A stretch of 20,711 nt of DNA from Planctomycetota bacterium. GTDB lineage: Bacteria > Planctomycetota > Brocadiia > JAJRTI01. The notes beneath the pieces are model-generated. The model made no database searches. It was not told where the DNA came from and worked only from the letters and a program-made list of their open reading frames with translations. The stretch spans positions 1 to 20,711 of the forward strand of contig JAJRTI010000677.1 in the NCBI GenBank assembly GCA_024278415.1, read 5' to 3'. Each line of letters begins with the position of its first letter. Within the stretch, counting starts at the first letter, position 1. Shown in pieces: positions 1,333 to 15,803 of this stretch. A program made the position numbers and the translations under genes.

Positions 1333-1413
1333 CGTAGCCGCACCCGTTAGGCTGCGGGCCGCAGTGCGTTTCGCATCTCCCGCATTCCCCGCATGCTGGC
1401 GCATGCGGCTACG
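1333..1413. repeat. Inverted repeat with internal CCGCATGC/GCATGCGG palindrome (copy 1 of 3)
   Basis: CGTAGCCGCA (1333-1342) is the exact reverse complement of TGCGGCTACG (1404-1413). Inside the right end, 1389-1408 is CCGCATGC-TGGC-GCATGCGG, a perfect 8-bp inverted repeat with a 4-base loop. The same core recurs at 5981-6000 (inverted) and 8621-8638. The first ATG of the following long reading frame (1393) sits inside this palindrome. Confidence 0.75.
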
Positions 1414-4258: not shown

Positions 4259-5980
4259 ATGAAAGTCCGACTCGCCAAGACTGCCGGCTTCTGCATGGGC
4301 GTGCGCCGCGCGATGGATATCGTGCTCGACATGGCCGACCAGGCGCGCGGGCCGCTCTACACCGAAGGGCCGCTGATCCACAACCCGCAAGTGCTCGAGT
4401 TGCTCGAAGCGCGCGGCGTGTGCGCGCTCAGTGAAGATGCCGATCTCGAAGACGCGACCGTGGTGGTGCGCGCACACGGCATCACGCCTGAGCGCCGGCG
4501 CGAACTGAAGGCCCTCGGCCTCCGGCTGCGCGACGCAACTTGTCCCCACGTGGCGCGCGTGCAAGGCCACGTGAAAAAGGCCACGCGCGGCGGCCGAGAC
4601 ACGGTCATCGTCGGCGACGCCGGCCACGCGGAGGTGGTGGGCATCCAGGGCTTCGCCAAGAACGGCGGCTTCGTCGTCCAGACCGTCGAGGAGGTGGACG
4701 ATCTGCCGGAGTTAGGGCCGGTCACCGTCGTCGCGCAGACGACCCAAGGCCGAGAGCGCTACGAGGCCATCTGCGCGCGGCTCCAGGAGCGATACGCGGA
4801 CTGCGAAGTGCGCGACACGATCTGCGACGCGACGCGGGACCGGCAGCAGGAGGCTGTTGCGCTGGCCAAGGAGGTGGACGCGATGGTGGTGGTAGGGGGG
4901 CGCGGCAGCGCGAATACCAAGCGCATCGTAGCGCTGTGCGAGGCGACAGGCACGCCCACGTATCACGTCGAGACTGAGGCGGAGTTGGACCTGAACGCAT
5001 TGCGCCGGCTCGACGTGGTGTGCGTGACCGCGGGCGCGTCTACGCCGACGTGGATGATCACGCGCGCGGTCGAGCAACTCCACGCGCTGCGCCCGGCAGA
5101 GCCGCCGTTGGTGGAGGCGCAAGCCAAGTTGGCTCAGGCGTTCATGTATACGAACTTGTACTCGGCGACCGGCGCGCTGGGGCTCGCCTATGCCAACTGC
5201 CGGCTCATGGGCATCCGTCCGGGCGCGGTGCCGTGGCTCGCGTTCTTTTACGTGTTCTCGATCCAGACGCTCAACATGCTCGTGGAGCGGCGCTCGGAAC
5301 TGCTCAACGATCCCCCGCGCGCGCAGTTCCTCCAGCGCCACGCGGTACTCATGCTGCTTGCCGCGCTGGGCGCGACCGCGGCCGCGGTCATCGGCGCGCT
5401 TCTGTTGGCCAACGAATGGGCCGGCGCGATGCTCATCCTCGCCTGCGCGCTCGGCGGGCTCTACCGCGTCCCTTTCACCCCCGCGCGGCTTCGCGGCCGG
5501 CTGCCGTTTCGGCGGCTGGCCGACATCGCCGGCACCCGCGAGATGTTCATTGTAGGCGCGTGGGTCGTGTCCACCGTGTTCGTGCCGGCCTTGGCGCGGC
5601 CCCGCGGCCTCGAACCGTCCCTAGGCGTGGCCATGTGCTTCGCCGGCGCGCTCGTGTTCCTACGCACGATCGTGCTGTCGATCCGCGACATCCAGGGCGA
5701 CCAGGTGATCGGCAAGGAGACGCTGGCCACGTTCCTCGGCCTGTGGCGCAGCAAGGTGCTCATCGTGCTCACGATTCTCGTCACGGTCGGCCTCCTCATC
5801 ATCGCGCCGCGCATGGGCTGGACCGACCGCGCGAGCTATGGGATGCTCGCATGCTGCGCGTACGCGGCGGGCTACCTCGCGCTCTACCACTTCCGCATCA
5901 TCAAAACGCGCCTGACCATGGAGGCCGTGGTGGACGGCAACTTCCTACTCGCGGGGTGCATTGCGGTGGCCTTGGGGTAG
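4259..5980 (+). CDS. ispH: IspH (HMBPP reductase) fused to a UbiA-like membrane prenyltransferase domain
   Basis: This 573-aa fusion begins with a full IspH domain (residues 1-277), the [4Fe-4S] enzyme that turns HMBPP into IPP and DMAPP in the MEP pathway. The cluster cysteines C12, C95 and C189 are present, with H41, H73, H123, E125, the QTT motif at 160-162, S216/N218 and S260. Stand-alone IspH is about 280-320 aa. Residues about 285-573 form a hydrophobic multi-helix domain of UbiA type, ending in the second Asp motif RDIQGDQVIGKETLA (D477, D481) and a DGNF segment near the C-terminus. The usual first motif NDxxDxxxD appears as N338-x3-E342-x3-E346, with Glu in place of Asp. I infer a membrane-tethered isoprenoid enzyme that may hand its product to prenyl transfer; the acceptor is unknown. 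It stops with TAG, directly followed by a dispersed palindrome. Confidence 0.9.
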   Translation: MKVRLAKTAGFCMGVRRAMDIVLDMADQARGPLYTEGPLIHNPQVLELLEARGVCALSEDADLEDATVVVRAHGITPERRRELKALGLRLRDATCPHVARVQGHVKKATRGGRDTVIVGDAGHAEVVGIQGFAKNGGFVVQTVEEVDDLPELGPVTVVAQTTQGRERYEAICARLQERYADCEVRDTICDATRDRQQEAVALAKEVDAMVVVGGRGSANTKRIVALCEATGTPTYHVETEAELDLNALRRLDVVCVTAGASTPTWMITRAVEQLHALRPAEPPLVEAQAKLAQAFMYTNLYSATGALGLAYANCRLMGIRPGAVPWLAFFYVFSIQTLNMLVERRSELLNDPPRAQFLQRHAVLMLLAALGATAAAVIGALLLANEWAGAMLILACALGGLYRVPFTPARLRGRLPFRRLADIAGTREMFIVGAWVVSTVFVPALARPRGLEPSLGVAMCFAGALVFLRTIVLSIRDIQGDQVIGKETLATFLGLWRSKVLIVLTILVTVGLLIIAPRMGWTDRASYGMLACCAYAAGYLALYHFRIIKTRLTMEAVVDGNFLLAGCIAVALG

Positions 5981-6000
5981 TCGCATGCGCCAGCATGCGG
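5981..6000. repeat. CCGCATGC/GCATGCGG palindrome (copy 2 of 3, inverted)
   Basis: This is the reverse complement of the core at 1389-1408, with one outer mismatch: CGCATGC, spacer GCCA, GCATGCGG. It begins at the first base after the ispH-ubiA stop codon and lies between convergent genes, where it could help end transcription. Confidence 0.7.
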
Positions 6001-6017: not shown

Positions 6018-6151
6018 TGGAGTGCGGTCCCGCATGTGCGGGAACGCCGCTTTGGCTTTCCGCCTGTGACTTGCGAACTGCTAGAGCGTCCGCGGATGCA
6101 AAGCAGCGCTACGCGCTGCGATCCAAAGCGCCGTCAAGCCGGCGCACTCCA
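6018..6151. repeat. Two inverted modules of a dispersed TGGAGTGCG...CGCTTTGG repeat
   Basis: Module 1 (6018-6060) runs TGGAGTGCG, a TCCCGCA-TG-TGCGGGA hairpin, then GCCGCTTTGG. Module 2 (6097-6151) is in the opposite orientation and ends CGCACTCCA. Module 2 matches 8440-8494 at 54 of 55 bases. Its minus-strand frame supplies the last residues (WSAPA) and TGA stop of the pfkB-family gene. The spacer between the convergent ispH-ubiA and pfkB genes holds only this repeat and the palindrome at 5981-6000. Confidence 0.75.
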
Positions 6152-7081
6152 GATGGCCGCGCTCCGAGCGCGTGCGCACAGCCGCTCGTAGGTCGCTCGC
6201 TCGATCGTGCCGCTTGCCGCGGTGAGCGCGCAGGCGGAGCCGCACGCGACCCCGCGGCGCAGGCACTCGTCCATAGGCGCCGCGTCGTCGAGCCCCGCGC
6301 AGAAGCCGGCCAGGAACGCGTCGCCGCAGCCCACCGTGTTCACCACGTCCTCGGCCGGCACGTCTGCCCGTGCGCACCAGGCGCCGTCACGCGTCACGCA
6401 CACCGCTCCTTCCGGACCCAGCGACACGACGACGATCTCGATTCGGTCGAGCAGCTTGCGCGCCTCGCGCACCGCGGCGTCCACGCCGTTCACCTGCGCA
6501 CCGCTGATCTCCGCAAGCTCGACATCGTTCGGCTTCACGAGCGCACACCCATGCTCCGCCGCGGCCGCCAGCGCGGGGCCGCTCGTGTCGACGCACACGC
6601 GCCGGCCGCCGGCCGCGCAATGGTCGATGAGCGAGACGAGCGCGGTGGGTTCCATGCCGGGCGGCAGGCTGCCGGCGATGACCACGATCGACGTGGCGGG
6701 CAGCAACTCGTCGAGCTTCGCGTGCAGGCGTTCGAGGTCGCCGGCTCCGACGTTGAACCCTAACTCGCGCACGTGCGTGACCGTGTTGTCCACGGGATCG
6801 ATGATCGTCGTATCGAAGCGCGTGGGCTCGTCCACTGACACGAGTGCGACCTGCGCCGGCGTGCCCGCGAAGGCCTGCTCGAACATGGCCTCCTCGCCCC
6901 AGCCCACGAACCCGCTGACGATGGATGGTTTGCCAAGCGTGCACAGCGTGCGCGAGATGTTCACCCCTTTTCCCGCGGGCAGTATCTCCACGACGCGGCC
7001 CTTGGTCGTGTCGCCGACGCGGAAGTTGGCGACCTCGATTGCGCGGTCGATTGCGGTATTGGGGGTGATCGTGAGGATCAT
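6134..7081 (-). CDS. PfkB-family sugar-phosphate kinase (1-phosphofructokinase / tagatose-6-phosphate kinase type)
   Basis: This 315-aa protein is a ribokinase-fold kinase of the 1-phosphofructokinase subgroup, using ATP on a phosphorylated hexose in the cytoplasm. The N-terminus MILTITPNTAIDRAIEV is the typical start of FruK/LacC proteins, and PAGKGVNISRTL near residue 35 is the first PfkB signature. The second signature is VNTVGCGDAFLAGF, with catalytic base D254 and anion-hole glycines; a KPND motif sits near residue 180. The gene follows the dapA-family gene after 34 bases on the same strand, so the two are probably cotranscribed. No Shine-Dalgarno is obvious. The final residues and stop lie inside a dispersed repeat, so the natural C-terminus may have been altered slightly. 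Fructose-1-phosphate, tagatose-6-phosphate or a keto-deoxy sugar phosphate are all possible substrates. Confidence 0.87.
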   Translation of the reverse strand: MILTITPNTAIDRAIEVANFRVGDTTKGRVVEILPAGKGVNISRTLCTLGKPSIVSGFVGWGEEAMFEQAFAGTPAQVALVSVDEPTRFDTTIIDPVDNTVTHVRELGFNVGAGDLERLHAKLDELLPATSIVVIAGSLPPGMEPTALVSLIDHCAAGGRRVCVDTSGPALAAAAEHGCALVKPNDVELAEISGAQVNGVDAAVREARKLLDRIEIVVVSLGPEGAVCVTRDGAWCARADVPAEDVVNTVGCGDAFLAGFCAGLDDAAPMDECLRRGVACGSACALTAASGTIERATYERLCARARSAAIWSAPA

Positions 7082-7115: not shown

Positions 7116-8027
7116 TCATAGCACGCCCTCGCGTTCGAGGATCGCCCGCACCTGCGCCAGCTCGTCGTCGCTTAGTGGCGTGAACGGCTGCGCGAGCCGG
7201 TCGCTGTCGAACACGCGCATGAGCATTAGCGCGGACTTGACGGCTTGGATCCCGGCCATGGTCGAGCTGCCGACGAAGAAGCACTCGGTGATGCGGTCGG
7301 CTTGGCGCTGAAGCGCGTCGGCCCGCGCCATGTCTCGCGCCCGCGCGGCCTCGAAGAGGTCGGCCACGAGCCGCGGCGCGAGGTTGCCTAGACCGGTCAC
7401 GAAACCGTCCGCGCCTTGGCTTGCGCCCATGGCCAGCAGCGGGGCCGCGGCGATCATCGCGCTGAAATGCGGGTGCTTCCGCGAGAGTGCGAGGAGCTTC
7501 GTGAAGTAAAGCATGTCCGCACTGCTGTCCTTGATCGCAGCCACGTTCGCGGTTTCGATCAGCTCCTCGACCACGTCTGGCGCCATAGTGACCTTGGACA
7601 TGCGCGGGAAGTTGTAGATGAGGATCGGCAGGTCGGTCTCTTGGCTCAGGCAGCGGTAATGGTTGACGATTGCGGCGTCGTCCATGGGGTAGTAGTAGGG
7701 CGCGATCATCGCGAGGCAATCCGCACCCGCGGCCTCGGCCATGCGCACCAACGGCAGGACGCGCTTGACGCTCGTCTCGCTCACGTTGATGCAAATCTTG
7801 ACGCGGCCCTGGACGGTTTCGGCGACCACATCGCACACGCCCTGTTTCACGTCGTGCGTCAGGAGCGGAAACTCGCCGGTTGTGCCGAGCACGAAGAGGC
7901 CGCTCGCACCACCGTCGATCACGTGTTCGAGCAAGCGAACGAAGCTCGGCACGTCGAGGTTCTCGTCGTCGGTGAGCGGCGTGGGGATGGGCGGGACAAG
8001 GCCGGTGAGGATTCTGGGTGTAGGCAT
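7116..8027 (-). CDS. DapA/NanA-family aldolase-lyase (dihydrodipicolinate synthase-like)
   Basis: This 303-aa protein is a class I (Schiff base) aldolase of the DapA/N-acetylneuraminate lyase family, a TIM barrel that splits or joins pyruvate and an aldehyde. GTTGE is at 48-52, Y138 in LIYNFP is the conserved active-site Tyr, and K166 in AIKDSSAD is the Schiff-base Lys. Length is normal for the family. The pairing with a PfkB kinase 34 bases downstream points to sugar-acid or amino-sugar breakdown rather than lysine synthesis, but this is inference. The start MPTPRILTGLVPPIPTPL is well placed, though no Shine-Dalgarno is visible. A 91-base stem-loop lies 20 bases upstream of the ATG. Annotation as plain dapA would be unsafe. 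Confidence 0.87.
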   Translation of the reverse strand: MPTPRILTGLVPPIPTPLTDDENLDVPSFVRLLEHVIDGGASGLFVLGTTGEFPLLTHDVKQGVCDVVAETVQGRVKICINVSETSVKRVLPLVRMAEAAGADCLAMIAPYYYPMDDAAIVNHYRCLSQETDLPILIYNFPRMSKVTMAPDVVEELIETANVAAIKDSSADMLYFTKLLALSRKHPHFSAMIAAAPLLAMGASQGADGFVTGLGNLAPRLVADLFEAARARDMARADALQRQADRITECFFVGSSTMAGIQAVKSALMLMRVFDSDRLAQPFTPLSDDELAQVRAILEREGVL

Positions 8028-8047
8028 TTGCTAGACGGGTTGAAGGG

Positions 8048-8138
8048 CATCGCCGTCAGGATAACCTGAGCGTCGCAAACTGCCCCCACCGCGAGAGACT
8101 CGGTGGGGAGTCGGACTGAAGTTATCTGGACGGCGGTG
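8048..8138 (-). promoter_or_regulatory. Structured leader element upstream of the dapA-family gene
   Basis: The outer arms 8048-8070 and 8116-8138 match as an inverted repeat at 18 of 23 positions. Read on the minus strand they give a 9/10-pair basal stem, a 2x2 internal loop, GATAAC/GTTATC, and a further short stem. The apex is CCCCACCG/CGGTGGGG, a perfect 8-bp stem. The element ends 20 bases before ATG 8027. I do not recognise it as a known riboswitch; it may be a cis-regulatory RNA or a REP-like repeat. Confidence 0.45.
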
Positions 8139-8146
8139 GGCGCAAG

Positions 8147-8280
8147 GCGGGCTTCGCCCGCAACCCGGGAGCGGATCCCGAGGCTTCGGGATCCGCTCCC
8201 GGCAAGCAGCTTCTTGTTTTTTGTGACAGTTCCGGATGGATAAGGCACTACGCTTTCTCGCAGACTTCGCTGCGAGAAAG
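8147..8280. repeat. Cluster of three perfect hairpins
   Basis: GCGGGC/GCCCGC (8147-8161) is followed by a perfect 17-bp stem with a GGCT loop (8165-8202; arms start CCGGGAGCGG and end CCGCTCCCGG). After a T-rich stretch comes CTTTCTCGCAG/CTGCGAGAAAG (8253-8280), an 11-bp stem with a six-base loop. The T-rich stretch 8211-8222 after the 17-bp stem could make it a plus-strand terminator, but no plus-strand gene precedes it. These look like REP-type elements. Confidence 0.6.
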
Positions 8281-8310
8281 GGGCGGCGGCGCTGCCGTCG
8301 GGCCGCTTGT

Positions 8311-8380
8311 AGTAGGGCGATTTATCGCCCGTCTGCCTCGTGAGAGCAAGGACGTTCGACGGGCAATGAATTGCCCTACT
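8311..8380. repeat. Inverted AGTAGGGC...CCCGTC repeat, each arm itself palindromic
   Basis: Arms 8311-8333 and 8358-8380 are inverted copies matching at 20 of 23 bases. Each arm also folds on itself (GGGCGATTTATCGCCC in the left arm, GGGCAATGAATTGCCC in the right). The whole can form a cruciform. It has the form of a small non-autonomous repeat. Confidence 0.65.
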
Positions 8381-8401
8381 CCAAACCACTCGCACCGCAC
8401 A

Positions 8402-8534
8402 CATCGACAACATGTTGTCGTTCGAAAGCCGCTAAGGGCTGCAAAGCAGCGCTACGCGCTGCGAGCCAAAGCGCCGTCAAGCCGGCGCACTCCACATCGG
8501 AGCGCATCGACAACATGTTGTCGTTCGAAAGCCG
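8402..8534. repeat. 30-bp direct repeats flanking a copy of the TGGAGTGCG-type repeat
   Basis: Identical 30-bp copies lie at 8402-8431 and 8505-8534. Each contains the perfect 16-bp palindrome CGACAACATGTTGTCG. Between them, 8440-8494 repeats 6097-6151 with one mismatch. This could be insertion of the dispersed repeat with target duplication, or a local tandem duplication. Confidence 0.75.
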
Positions 8535-8620
8535 GTAAGCGCCTAAAGGGCAAGGGTTGACGGCGCACACTATAGCAAGTCCCGGGGACGCTCCGAAATG
8601 AGTACACCGTGGTCGTATTC

Positions 8621-8638
8621 CCGCATGCTGGCGCATGC
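8621..8638. repeat. CCGCATGC/GCATGC palindrome (copy 3 of 3)
   Basis: CCGCATGC-TGGC-GCATGC repeats the core seen at 1389-1408 and, inverted, at 5981-6000. The flanking ATTCCC is also shared with copy 1. It lies just upstream of the tyrS promoter. Confidence 0.7.
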
Positions 8639-8665
8639 AGCGACCAACGGCATTGTCGCCAAAAC

Positions 8666-8694
8666 TTGACCGGCGGCCGGCAGTGGCCTATAAT
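8666..8694 (+). promoter_or_regulatory. Sigma-70 type promoter of tyrS (TTGACC-N17-TATAAT)
   Basis: The -35 TTGACC (8666-8671) and the perfect -10 TATAAT (8689-8694) are separated by exactly 17 bases. Transcription should start near 8701, giving a leader of about 53 bases that opens with a small CCCCG/CGGGG hairpin (8703-8716). This is the best promoter in the window and shows that tyrS retains intact expression signals. Confidence 0.75.
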
Positions 8695-8753
8695 CCACGA
8701 CTCCCCGTAGGCGGGGCAACGTTCGCTAAGCGTGTCATCTATTGGAGTGCGAA

Positions 8754-9980
8754 GTGGCCGATTTTTTGCCAGTTGATGAGCAAATGCGCATCCTCAAGCG
8801 CGGCACGGAAGAGATCTTCCCTGAGGAAGAACTTGCCGAGAAGCTTGAGGCGTAGAGGGCGGCCGGCCGGCCTCTGCGCATCAAGTACGGGATCGATCCG
8901 ACCGCGCCGGACGTGCACCTTGGGCACACCGTGCCGATCAGGAAGCTGCGCCACTTCCAAGAGTTGGGCCACCTGCCCGTCATCATCATTGGCGACTATA
9001 CCGCGATGGTCGGCGATCCGTCCGGGCGTGATGAGACGCGCAAGTCGGCGCCCCAGCACGAGGAGGTGCTCGCTCTCGCGCAAACCTACGTGGAACAACT
9101 GGGCAAGATCCTTGACCTGGACCAGATCGAAGTGCGGCACAACGGCGATTGGTTCAAGGACATGACCTTTGCGGATGTCATTTGGCTGACGTCGAAGATC
9201 ACGGTCGCCCGCATTATCGAGCGCGACGATTTCAAGAAGCGCCTGGACGCGGGCATTCCCATTGGCTTGCACGAATGCCTCTATTCCCTGATGCAGGGGT
9301 ACGATTCGGTGATGGTCGAGGCGGACGTGGAGCTTGGCGGCACGGAGCAGAAGCACGCGCTGCTCGTGGGCCGCGACTTGCAGAAGGACGCCGGCCAGAC
9401 GCCCCAGGTGTGCATGACGTTCCCTATCCTCGTCGGCACGGACGGCACGCGCAGGATGGGCAAGAGCCTGGGCAATTATATTGGCATCGATGAGGCGCCG
9501 GAGGAGATGCTGGGCAAGATCATGTCAATTCCGGACCACGCGATGCGGCAGTATTTCGAGTTGACCACGGACTTGCCCGTGGAGCGCATCGAGGAGTTGT
9601 TGAGCGACAAGACGCATCCCCGCGACGCGAAGGCGCTGCTCGCGAAGACCATTGTGGCCCGCTATCATGGCGAGGCCGCGGCGCGGGCGGCGGAGGAGCA
9701 TTTCGACAAGCTTTTCCGGCAACACGAGCAGCCGGACGACATGCCCGATGTCGTGATCACACGGGAGGACTTGAAGGACGGCAAGTTGTGGATCGCGAAA
9801 CTGATTGTGAAGGCTGGCTTCGCCAAGAGCAATGGCGAAGCGCGGCGGCTTGTCGCACAGGGCGGCGTGGTTTTGGATGGGCAGAAGGTCCGCGATCCGA
9901 GTTGGGACTTTGAGCCACAATCGGGCGCCGTGCTGCAAGTCGGCAAGCGGCGATTCGCGGCCCTTCGGGTGCAGGCGTGA
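8754..9980 (+). CDS. tyrS: Tyrosyl-tRNA synthetase interrupted by an in-frame TAG at codon 34
   Basis: The product charges tRNA-Tyr with tyrosine. GTG 8754 has GGAG (8744-8747) six bases upstream and a strong promoter. The frame reads the usual TyrRS N-terminus (EQMRILKRGTEEIFPEEEL), meets TAG at 8853-8855, and continues without shift into RPLRIKYGIDPTAPDVHLGH, the HIGH-type motif (H55-H58). A KMSKS-like RMGKS is at 234-238 and an S4 RNA-binding domain at about 345-405. Total length of 408 codons is normal for the family. The only other candidate start, GTG 8913, would drop the tyrosine/ATP-binding strand YGIDPTAPD just before the HIGH motif, so it is unlikely to give an active enzyme. Everything but one codon looks functional: a base error, a recent nonsense mutation or readthrough are possible. 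Four other genes here stop with TAG, which argues against general reassignment. Confidence 0.9.
8853..8855 (+). other. In-frame amber codon within tyrS
   Basis: TAG follows KLEA and precedes RAAGRPLRIK, a surface-helix position where related enzymes carry variable polar residues. TCG, AAG, GAG, CAG or TGG would each be one substitution away. No frameshift accompanies it. Confidence 0.9.
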
Positions 9981-10058
9981 CCCTTTGGTCCACAGCGACC
10001 CCGCCGCCGGCCTCGTGGCGCTGAGCTTGTGACTGCGTTCAGCAGAAGGAGAACACCG

Positions 10059-11141
10059 ATGCCCCCTTATGGTTTCGGCCTTGTCGGCTGCGGCATGATT
10101 TCGCGCTTCCACGCCGCGGCGATTGATGCGATTCCGAACGCCAAACTGGTCGCGGTGAACGACGTGGCCGAGGCGGCAGCGAGGCGTTTCGGCGAGGAGT
10201 TCGGCGTTGACTGGCATACGGACCTGGACGACATGCTGGCTCGCGACGACGTGGACGTTGTCTGCGTGTGCACGCCCAGCGGGTTCCATCGCAATGCCGC
10301 AGTCGCGGCCGCCGACGCCGGCAAACACGTCGTCGTCGAGAAGCCGTTGGACATCACGCTCGCCAAGTGCGATGCGATCATCGACGCGGCCGAGCGTAAC
10401 AACGTGAAGCTGAGCGGCATCTTTCCCTCTCGTTTTTTTCCGTGCAATCAATTGGTCAAGAAGGCGGTGGACGAGGGCCGTTTTGGCCGCATCACGCTGG
10501 GCGACGTGTACACGAAATGGTGGCGCACGCAAGAATACTACGATGGCGGCGGCTGGCGCGGGACGTGGCGACTCGATGGCGGCGGCGCGCTGATGAACCA
10601 AGGCGTGCATGCCATCGACTTGTTGTTATGGATCATGGGGCCGGCCGAGTCCGTGCAAGCCTTCACCACGTGCCGCTGCCACGAATGCATCGAGGTCGAG
10701 GACACGGCCGTGGCGTGCGTGCGGTTCAAGAGCGGCGCGCTGGGCGTCATCGAGGGCGCCACGTCTGTCTATCCCGGCATGCCCAAGCGGATGGAGATCA
10801 GCGGCGAGAGGGGCACTGTCATCGTGAGCGAGGAAGATATCACCACTTGGCAGTTCGCTGACGAGCGTCCGGAGGACGAGCGAATTCGGCACGAGTTTGC
10901 GCGCAAGGGCAAGACCGCGGGCGGATCCACCGATCCCAAGGCGATCAGCCACGAAGGCCATCAGCGGCAGTTGGAGAACATGATCCGCGCGATTGAAACC
11001 GACACGCCACCCCCTGTTGACGGCCGCGAGGCCCGCAAGGCCGTCGAGTTGATTCTGGCCATCTACCTGTCGTCGCATGAGCAGCGCCTAGTAGAATTGC
11101 CGTTGCGCGAGGATCCGGAGTTTGTTGTGCAAGAGGTCTGA
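10059..11141 (+). CDS. Gfo/Idh/MocA-family NAD(P)-dependent oxidoreductase
   Basis: This 360-aa protein has an N-terminal Rossmann domain with GLVGCGMISRFH (G10-x-G12), which binds NAD(P), and the family's E94-K95-P96 motif with the catalytic Lys. The C-terminal alpha/beta domain contains GGGALMNQGVHAIDLL, with H184 and D187 as the expected active-site residues. Such enzymes oxidise or epimerise sugars, inositols or their derivatives in the cytoplasm; the substrate cannot be told. ATG 10059 is chosen because AAGGAGA (10046-10052) precedes it by the right distance. GTG 10029 upstream would add ten unconserved residues and place the RBS inside the gene. It lies 78 bases after tyrS on the same strand and may be expressed separately. 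A MITE is inserted directly after its stop. Confidence 0.9.
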   Translation: MPPYGFGLVGCGMISRFHAAAIDAIPNAKLVAVNDVAEAAARRFGEEFGVDWHTDLDDMLARDDVDVVCVCTPSGFHRNAAVAAADAGKHVVVEKPLDITLAKCDAIIDAAERNNVKLSGIFPSRFFPCNQLVKKAVDEGRFGRITLGDVYTKWWRTQEYYDGGGWRGTWRLDGGGALMNQGVHAIDLLLWIMGPAESVQAFTTCRCHECIEVEDTAVACVRFKSGALGVIEGATSVYPGMPKRMEISGERGTVIVSEEDITTWQFADERPEDERIRHEFARKGKTAGGSTDPKAISHEGHQRQLENMIRAIETDTPPPVDGREARKAVELILAIYLSSHEQRLVELPLREDPEFVVQEV

Positions 11142-15146: not shown

Positions 15147-15392
15147 ATGGCGCTCATAGTACAGGATGATTTGCTCAAGGCGGCCGGGACAACCCCCGAG
15201 GAAGCTCGACGGCTGCTTGCGGTGGCGGTATATGTGCAAGGCCAAGCTTCGTTTGGGGCGGCCGCGCGTCTGGCCAACATGGATCGCCAGGAGTTCCAGA
15301 AACTCCTGGGGAGGCACCGGGTGCCGATGGGGCCTAGCGCTGACGATCTGGACAAGGAGGCCCTCACCTTGAGACGCCTCAAGCTCCTATGA
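15147..15392 (+). CDS. UPF0175-family antitoxin-like protein
   Basis: This 81-aa protein matches the UPF0175 family in length and pattern: DDLLKAAGTTPEEARRLLAVAVYVQG, then the helix-turn-helix-like GAAARLANMDRQEFQKLLGRHRVP, then an acidic LDKEALTLRRL tail. UPF0175 proteins are predicted antitoxins or DNA-binding partners of DUF3368 PIN-like toxins and would repress their own operon. AGGAG (15134-15138) lies eight bases before the ATG. Its stop overlaps the next start as ATGA, so the two are translationally coupled. The gene appears complete while its toxin partner is broken, leaving an orphan antitoxin. Confidence 0.8.
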   Translation: MALIVQDDLLKAAGTTPEEARRLLAVAVYVQGQASFGAAARLANMDRQEFQKLLGRHRVPMGPSADDLDKEALTLRRLKLL

Positions 15393-15803
15393 TCGTCGTC
15401 AGCGACACCCCGCCAGTCACTAATCTCATCGGGTGCGGGCTGCTCCATGTCCTCCCTGTGCTGTACGGGCGCGTCTTGGTGCCCCAAGCTGTGTGCAGGG
15501 AACTCGCTATGCTGGTCGATGCTGACCCAGCGTACGATGTCGCCGCGTACGACTGGATCGAGGTCCATACTGTCCAGGATCAGCAGCGCAGATCTTGTGC
15601 TGATCGACGAGCGCAGGGGATCCCAAGTGGCTGATGAACTCGATCTGCCGCACGTTGGCGTGCTGGGTACACTGCTGGCGGCCAAGAAGCGGGGGCTCAT
15701 TGCTGCCGTCGCACCCGTAGTTGACGAGTTGCGATATCACGTTGGCTTCTGGCTCACCGATGATGTGGTGCAGCGTGTGATGGAGCTGGCGGGCGAAAGC
15801 TAA
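15389..15803 (+). pseudogene. DUF3368 PIN-like toxin disrupted by internal deletion and frameshift
   Basis: The first frame (from ATG 15389) reads MIVVSDTPPVTNLIG through YDWIEVHTVQD, the normal DUF3368 N-terminus with the first catalytic Asp in SDT. From about 15582 the homology continues in another frame as SADLVLIDERRG, then GVLGTLLAAKKRGLI, and ends MELAGES at TAA 15803. DUF3368 proteins normally have about 45 residues from WIEV to the LLIDER motif; here there are about 17. So roughly 28 codons, including the conserved GEAEA acidic motif, have gone, with loss of frame. The toxin should be inactive. It overlaps the antitoxin by ATGA. Confidence 0.8.

Follow-up and report, generated by a model that had tools for sequence, protein, structure and literature searches.

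An amber codon within an inverted repeat of an otherwise intact planctomycete tyrosyl-tRNA synthetase gene

How is an in-frame stop codon to be understood in a gene whose product, tyrosyl-tRNA synthetase (TyrRS), is essential? The question is raised by the tyrS gene on a 20,711-nucleotide stretch of planctomycete DNA (contig JAJRTI010000677.1), the whole of which is referred to here as the window. The stop could be an error in the deposited sequence, a real mutation, or a codon that translation gets round.

The tyrS frame and its single stop

The tyrS gene occupies positions 8754–9980 of the forward strand as a single frame whose sole internal stop is the TAG at 8853–8855, codon 34. Upstream on the same strand is a putative sigma-70-like promoter, TTGACC-17-TATAAT (8666–8694), with 11 of 12 consensus matches; the assignment is a pattern match alone, and the pattern occurs at one site in 8000–10200 versus 0.4 sites in shuffles. 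A GGAG at 8744–8747, likely the ribosome-binding site, stands 6 nt before the GTG start at 8754. The preliminary description of this locus had named the same near-consensus promoter, ribosome-binding site and GTG start, together with a frame broken only at codon 34, and all of these were recovered. A structured tyrS leader acting as an attenuator was considered and dropped, the fold having a z-score of −0.02.

Codons 1–33 (8754–8852) encode an N-terminal segment in which 25 of 32 residues are identical to the closest relative, P0002, so that the sequences on the two sides of the TAG are parts of one gene. Past the stop, the catalytic and S4 domains are encoded (8856–9980, ending in a TGA at 9978–9980). 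This segment matched Pfam tRNA-synt_1b and S4, and scored 349.5 bits against TIGR00234, well above the 113.8-bit cut-off for assignment as a TyrRS; the nearest solved chain by sequence was PDB 1h3e (E 9.5e-107). The window gene thus shares with bacterial TyrRSs (TIGR00234, 1h3e) the catalytic and S4 domains and the HLGH motif, but differs from them in that its frame, as deposited, is cut by TAG at codon 34. The KMSKS loop reads RMGKS, as it also does in close relatives. The first in-frame ATG, GTG or TTG past the TAG is the GTG at 8913–8915 (forward strand), and a protein started there lacks the strand YGIDPTAPD. The database gene call for this locus (P0001, 355 aa) begins at that GTG.

The region upstream of tyrS also carries repeated sequence. 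The 16-mer GCATGCTGGCGCATGC has three exact copies in the window (1391–1406, 5983–5998 and 8623–8638), near or between genes, versus 0.04 expected in shuffles when up to 2 mismatches are allowed. A 74-nt repeat has two copies of 89% identity (6094–6167 and 8437–8510), the second upstream of tyrS and flanked by the two 95%-identical copies of a 38-nt repeat containing GACAACATGTTGTC (8402–8439 and 8505–8542). A 24-mer of the 74-nt repeat was absent from 121 loci, and a 20-mer was absent from viral contigs.

Codon 34 and the constraint on tyrS among relatives

The codon-34 site was compared at the DNA level across 118 loci, 116 of which gave a match (L091 and L092 did not); the set includes duplicates and its members are all distant. 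The site was a codon for Ser (81 rows), Ala (31), Gly (2), Cys (1) or Asn (1), and a stop in none of the 116. The same TAG, which the preliminary description had proposed looking for in relatives, is therefore absent from every row of this distant set, as is any kept stop of the kind that programmed readthrough or a suppressed amber would leave. In 119 protein homologues the column held Ser 103 times, Ala 12 times and a gap four times, and never Tyr; that list is biased and blind to stops because gene calls end at stops. Three of the gaps (P0068, P0070 and P0087) reflect loss of a short loop, and the fourth (P0008) loss of the whole N-terminus. The closest TyrRS proteins, at 79, 78, 77, 76 and 75% identity, are available as proteins only, and relatives of 75–79% identity have Ser at this column. 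The first matches to carry an organism name belong to Brocadiales and Planctomycetota, which, together with the neighboring LytB–UbiA fusion that many Planctomycetota matches share, makes the window probably a piece of an uncultured planctomycete genome.

The rest of the gene bears no mark of decay. At 85 columns conserved in at least 95% of sequences, three of them before the stop, the window TyrRS departs at none; this is ordinary, as 54 of 120 sequences likewise show no departure. A decaying pseudogene would be expected to have accumulated more than one lesion, or substitutions where the family is conserved; the window gene has one stop and no changed column out of 85. In a phylogenetic tree its sister is P0002 (support 99/92), and its end branch measures 0.21 versus 0.12, which could reflect slightly faster change. 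Since tyrS shows no sign of decay, the stop must have arisen very recently, be an artifact, or be bypassed by the ribosome.

No near strain was found in which the codon could be read, the window's 90% cluster consisting of one sequence (P0001) and the next match being at 79%. In genomes, the best tyrS match reached 60% in a scan of genome contigs and 60–61% among the matches listed for 392 genomes of the phylum. Searches at E ≤ 1e-152 for a nearer tyrS gave none in 75 genomes of one class (that of G001) nor in 9 of another (that of G003); with the threshold set barely beyond the best known match, these empty results show just that nothing nearer scored.

The frequency of interrupted and duplicate tyrS genes was surveyed by searching 149 planctomycete genomes with TIGR00234, 136 of which had a match at E ≤ 1e-20. 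In two of the 136, a tyrS is interrupted by a single in-frame TAA. By eye, the one in G045 (L119, G045:C1) falls in the stretch that joins the catalytic part to the S4 region, and the one in G145 (L120, G145:C128) falls within the catalytic part; a further tyrS of G145 (L121), of the window's kind, has an open frame. Interrupted tyrS genes, whether errors or real, thus occur at roughly the percent level in public genomes. Seven of the 136 genomes gave two matches. On reading, these proved to be one gene in two pieces in four cases (G011, G043, G102 and G148), fragments on different contigs in two (G038 and G150), and two distinct genes in one, G145. Two tyrS genes in one genome were accordingly found in 1 of 136 genomes by such reading and, in a separate set, in 1 of 9 (G009, on different contigs); among the matches listed for 241 genomes, at least two (G239 and G260) had two tyrS matches.

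An inverted repeat at the stop: probable error or possible recent mutation

The TAG lies within an imperfect inverted repeat that is new here, having gone unmentioned in the preliminary description. Its left arm (8844–8862) holds the TAG, its right arm (8867–8885, same strand) falls in the codons for RPLRIK, and across a loop of 4 the arms form 16 of 19 possible Watson–Crick pairs plus one G–T. The window was scanned for inverted repeats with 19-base arms, a minimum of 16 pairs and a loop of 3–10 bases. This gave five rows, four of which represent a single place near 8163, outside the long genes, in shifted alignments; the tyrS repeat is thus the only match that falls within one of the window's long genes. 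The strongest inverted repeat in the scan (8163–8204, 17 of 19 pairs, loop 4) is upstream of a dihydrodipicolinate-synthase-like gene. The stretch 8840–8920 folds at −41.5 kcal/mol (z −3.04), a better value than that of any of 200 shuffled sequences. By folding energy in 60-nt windows, however, the tyrS hairpin is just tenth on the forward strand, where 44 of 6884 windows are equal or better, and several stronger folds sit inside genes.

Among 93 distinct relatives (each counted once, and leaving aside rows with no usable place), the best repeat of the same kind over the codon reached 13 of 19 pairs, and when synonymous codons were resampled 200,000 times with both the TAG and the register of pairing held constant, 0.9% of the resamplings reached 16 pairs. 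The pairing involves rare codons on both arms: AGG, the codon after the TAG, accounts for 23 of 382 Arg codons (6%) and pairs with CCT, which accounts for 24 of 292 Pro codons (8%); a CTT (52 of 573 Leu codons) pairs with the common AAG. Two bases of the TAG, A and G, are paired with the right arm, and its T forms the G–T. These statistics are suggestive only, the repeat having been spotted after the fact.

On balance we favor the reading that the TAG is a base-calling, library or assembly error at this fold-back sequence, and that the organism's tyrS is most probably intact. The GC-rich arms would fold back on each other during sequencing or amplification and so favor an error, and the repeat could place a wrong base, or a new one, exactly at the TAG, whether through a miscall or through a template switch. 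What argues for an error is the combination of a lone lesion, a frame that is otherwise constrained, with 0 of 85 columns changed, a sense codon in 116 of 116 relatives' rows, and the position of the TAG in the only repeat of such arm pairing within a long gene; the in-frame TAA in tyrS of 2 of 136 other planctomycete genomes points the same way. From the single in-frame stop, the constrained gene and the repeat, all of them observed, we infer that one base of the TAG is wrong. Moreover, a consensus sequence containing a lethal stop is not expected, since TyrRS is essential and most of the planctomycete genomes searched showed one tyrS.

Illumina miscalls after inverted repeats and GGC are reported in PMC3622629, which cites an earlier study for them; the same paper finds short GGC context to be an unreliable predictor of errors, which counts against an error here. 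Assembly errors have been held responsible for many of the internal stops seen in public bacterial genomes (PMC11017572). The window gene resembles such cases from draft assemblies in that one stop interrupts a contig gene that is normal in other respects; it differs in being known from one assembled contig.

Other observations also weigh against an error. The remaining long genes have no in-frame stop, so errors are not frequent across the contig. One exception stands beside that statement: at 15389–15803, behind a UPF0175 gene, a DUF3368-type gene is apparently split over two frames, its N-terminal part seemingly in the frame of 15389 and its DUF3368 match in the frame of 15447. The folds in the window that are stronger than the tyrS hairpin carry no such stop. 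Furthermore, the pairing of the rare AGG with CCT in the repeat fits a real, templated change equally well.

Such a change is the basis of the main competing explanation, namely that the TAG is real and arose very recently as a nonsense mutation, perhaps through a template switch from one arm to the other, with TyrRS supplied from a second tyrS or through a suppressor tRNA. We consider this a substantial possibility, though one that we would sooner doubt than accept. Template switching is described to homogenize the arms of inverted repeats in yeast coding DNA (PMC8604942). As in the quasipalindrome mutations described there, the stop is located in an inverted repeat with imperfect arms, its A and G pairing with the opposite arm; in contrast to them, the window's arms still hold one G–T and two mismatched positions, and the comparison involves the window sequence alone.

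Quasipalindrome mutations made by template switching have reportedly been studied in E. coli as well. In favor of a recent mutation, the A and G of the TAG, with the following AGG, pair with a right arm that includes CCT, the repeats of relatives are weaker, and 16 pairs are rare among the resamplings. A second tyrS does occur in some planctomycete genomes, as in G145 and G009. Set against this are the low frequency of such genomes (1 of 136 and 1 of 9), the lack of any further sign of decay in tyrS, and the conjectural nature of the templating, the repeat having been noticed post hoc. Both an assembly error and a recent nonsense mutation, which the preliminary description had put forward as the simpler options, fit the evidence.

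Internal starts, suppression and reassignment

The remaining readings let translation get round a real TAG. Ribosomes might reinitiate or start inside the gene, for example at the CTG at 8874, giving a TyrRS that lacks its first 40 residues and keeps the active-site strand. This CTG is in frame, 18 bases past the TAG, precedes YGIDPT and has an AGAGG (8854–8858) upstream of it. CTG is a weak start codon, however, and here it lies within an arm of the hairpin; the GTG at 8913 would omit YGIDPTAPD, and the 33 codons upstream of the TAG are conserved. A possible parallel is P0008, a TyrRS of 354 aa and 70% identity to that of the window, which is annotated from the same internal GTG at the same VHLGH position. 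It is the only such case among 119 other listed homologues, and its gene lies on a contig of 1909 bases; a cut contig could yield the same gene call. The preliminary description had held internal initiation to be unlikely because the stop precedes the YGIDPTAPD strand. The GTG at 8913 is behind the strand; the in-frame CTG before the strand is a possible if weak start. We regard an internal start as improbable.

A programmed or suppressed amber is less probable again, and we think it very unlikely. Here a suppressor tRNA, possibly tRNA-Tyr, would read the TAG with help from the hairpin, and the level of TyrRS would track tRNA charging. The frame is conserved on both sides of the TAG, its surroundings form a more stable fold than any of 200 shuffles (z −3.04), and the loss of the short loop in P0068, P0070 and P0087 (3 of 119 homologues) suggests that an unusual residue might be tolerated at this place. 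Yet none of the 116 rows from distant relatives, duplicates included, has a stop at the codon; Tyr is never found at the column in the 119 protein homologues, a biased list that is blind to stops; efficient suppression would come at a cost in a window where TAG closes 4 of 12 long genes; and the hairpin ranks just tenth on the forward strand by 60-nt energy. A hairpin that helps readthrough is unsupported by the relatives seen here.

The boldest form of this idea is that the hairpin-embedded amber couples TyrRS synthesis to a suppressing tRNA, so that the synthetase responds to how far its own tRNA is charged; P0008 might then be another instance from the same wider group. We hold it to be more remote still. 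The preliminary description had likewise suggested that an amber codon in this gene could act as a feedback switch, and the suggestion found little support: no relative's row among the 116 has the stop, and no tRNA gene is present in the window. The window also had no Rfam match at the gathering threshold, and a literature search by title and the start of the abstract gave no readthrough stop in a tyrosyl-tRNA synthetase and no UAG reassignment in planctomycetes.

Reassignment of TAG to an amino acid in this organism has nothing besides the single codon in its favor and a negligible probability, with one in-frame TAG in 12 long genes (5674 codons), four of which end in TAG: those for an FGGY kinase, an MFS/spermidine-synthase-like protein, a LytB–UbiA fusion and a flippase. 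The fusion, the one of the four compared in this way, ends within a few residues of the ends of 7 aligned relatives, so its TAG very probably terminates translation. TAG thus very probably still serves as a terminator here, and the earlier statements that it ends four other genes and that global reassignment is unlikely both hold. The fusion gene itself (4259–5980) joins LytB (IspH) to a UbiA-type prenyltransferase, a two-domain protein that is widespread among matches with Planctomycetota names, mostly Brocadiales.

If the switch were true, it would be a new way of regulating a synthetase. Short of that, the case illustrates how one can weigh, with no reads to hand, an internal stop that interrupts an essential gene in an uncultured lineage, and it marks the inverted repeat as the cause to check first for such stops.
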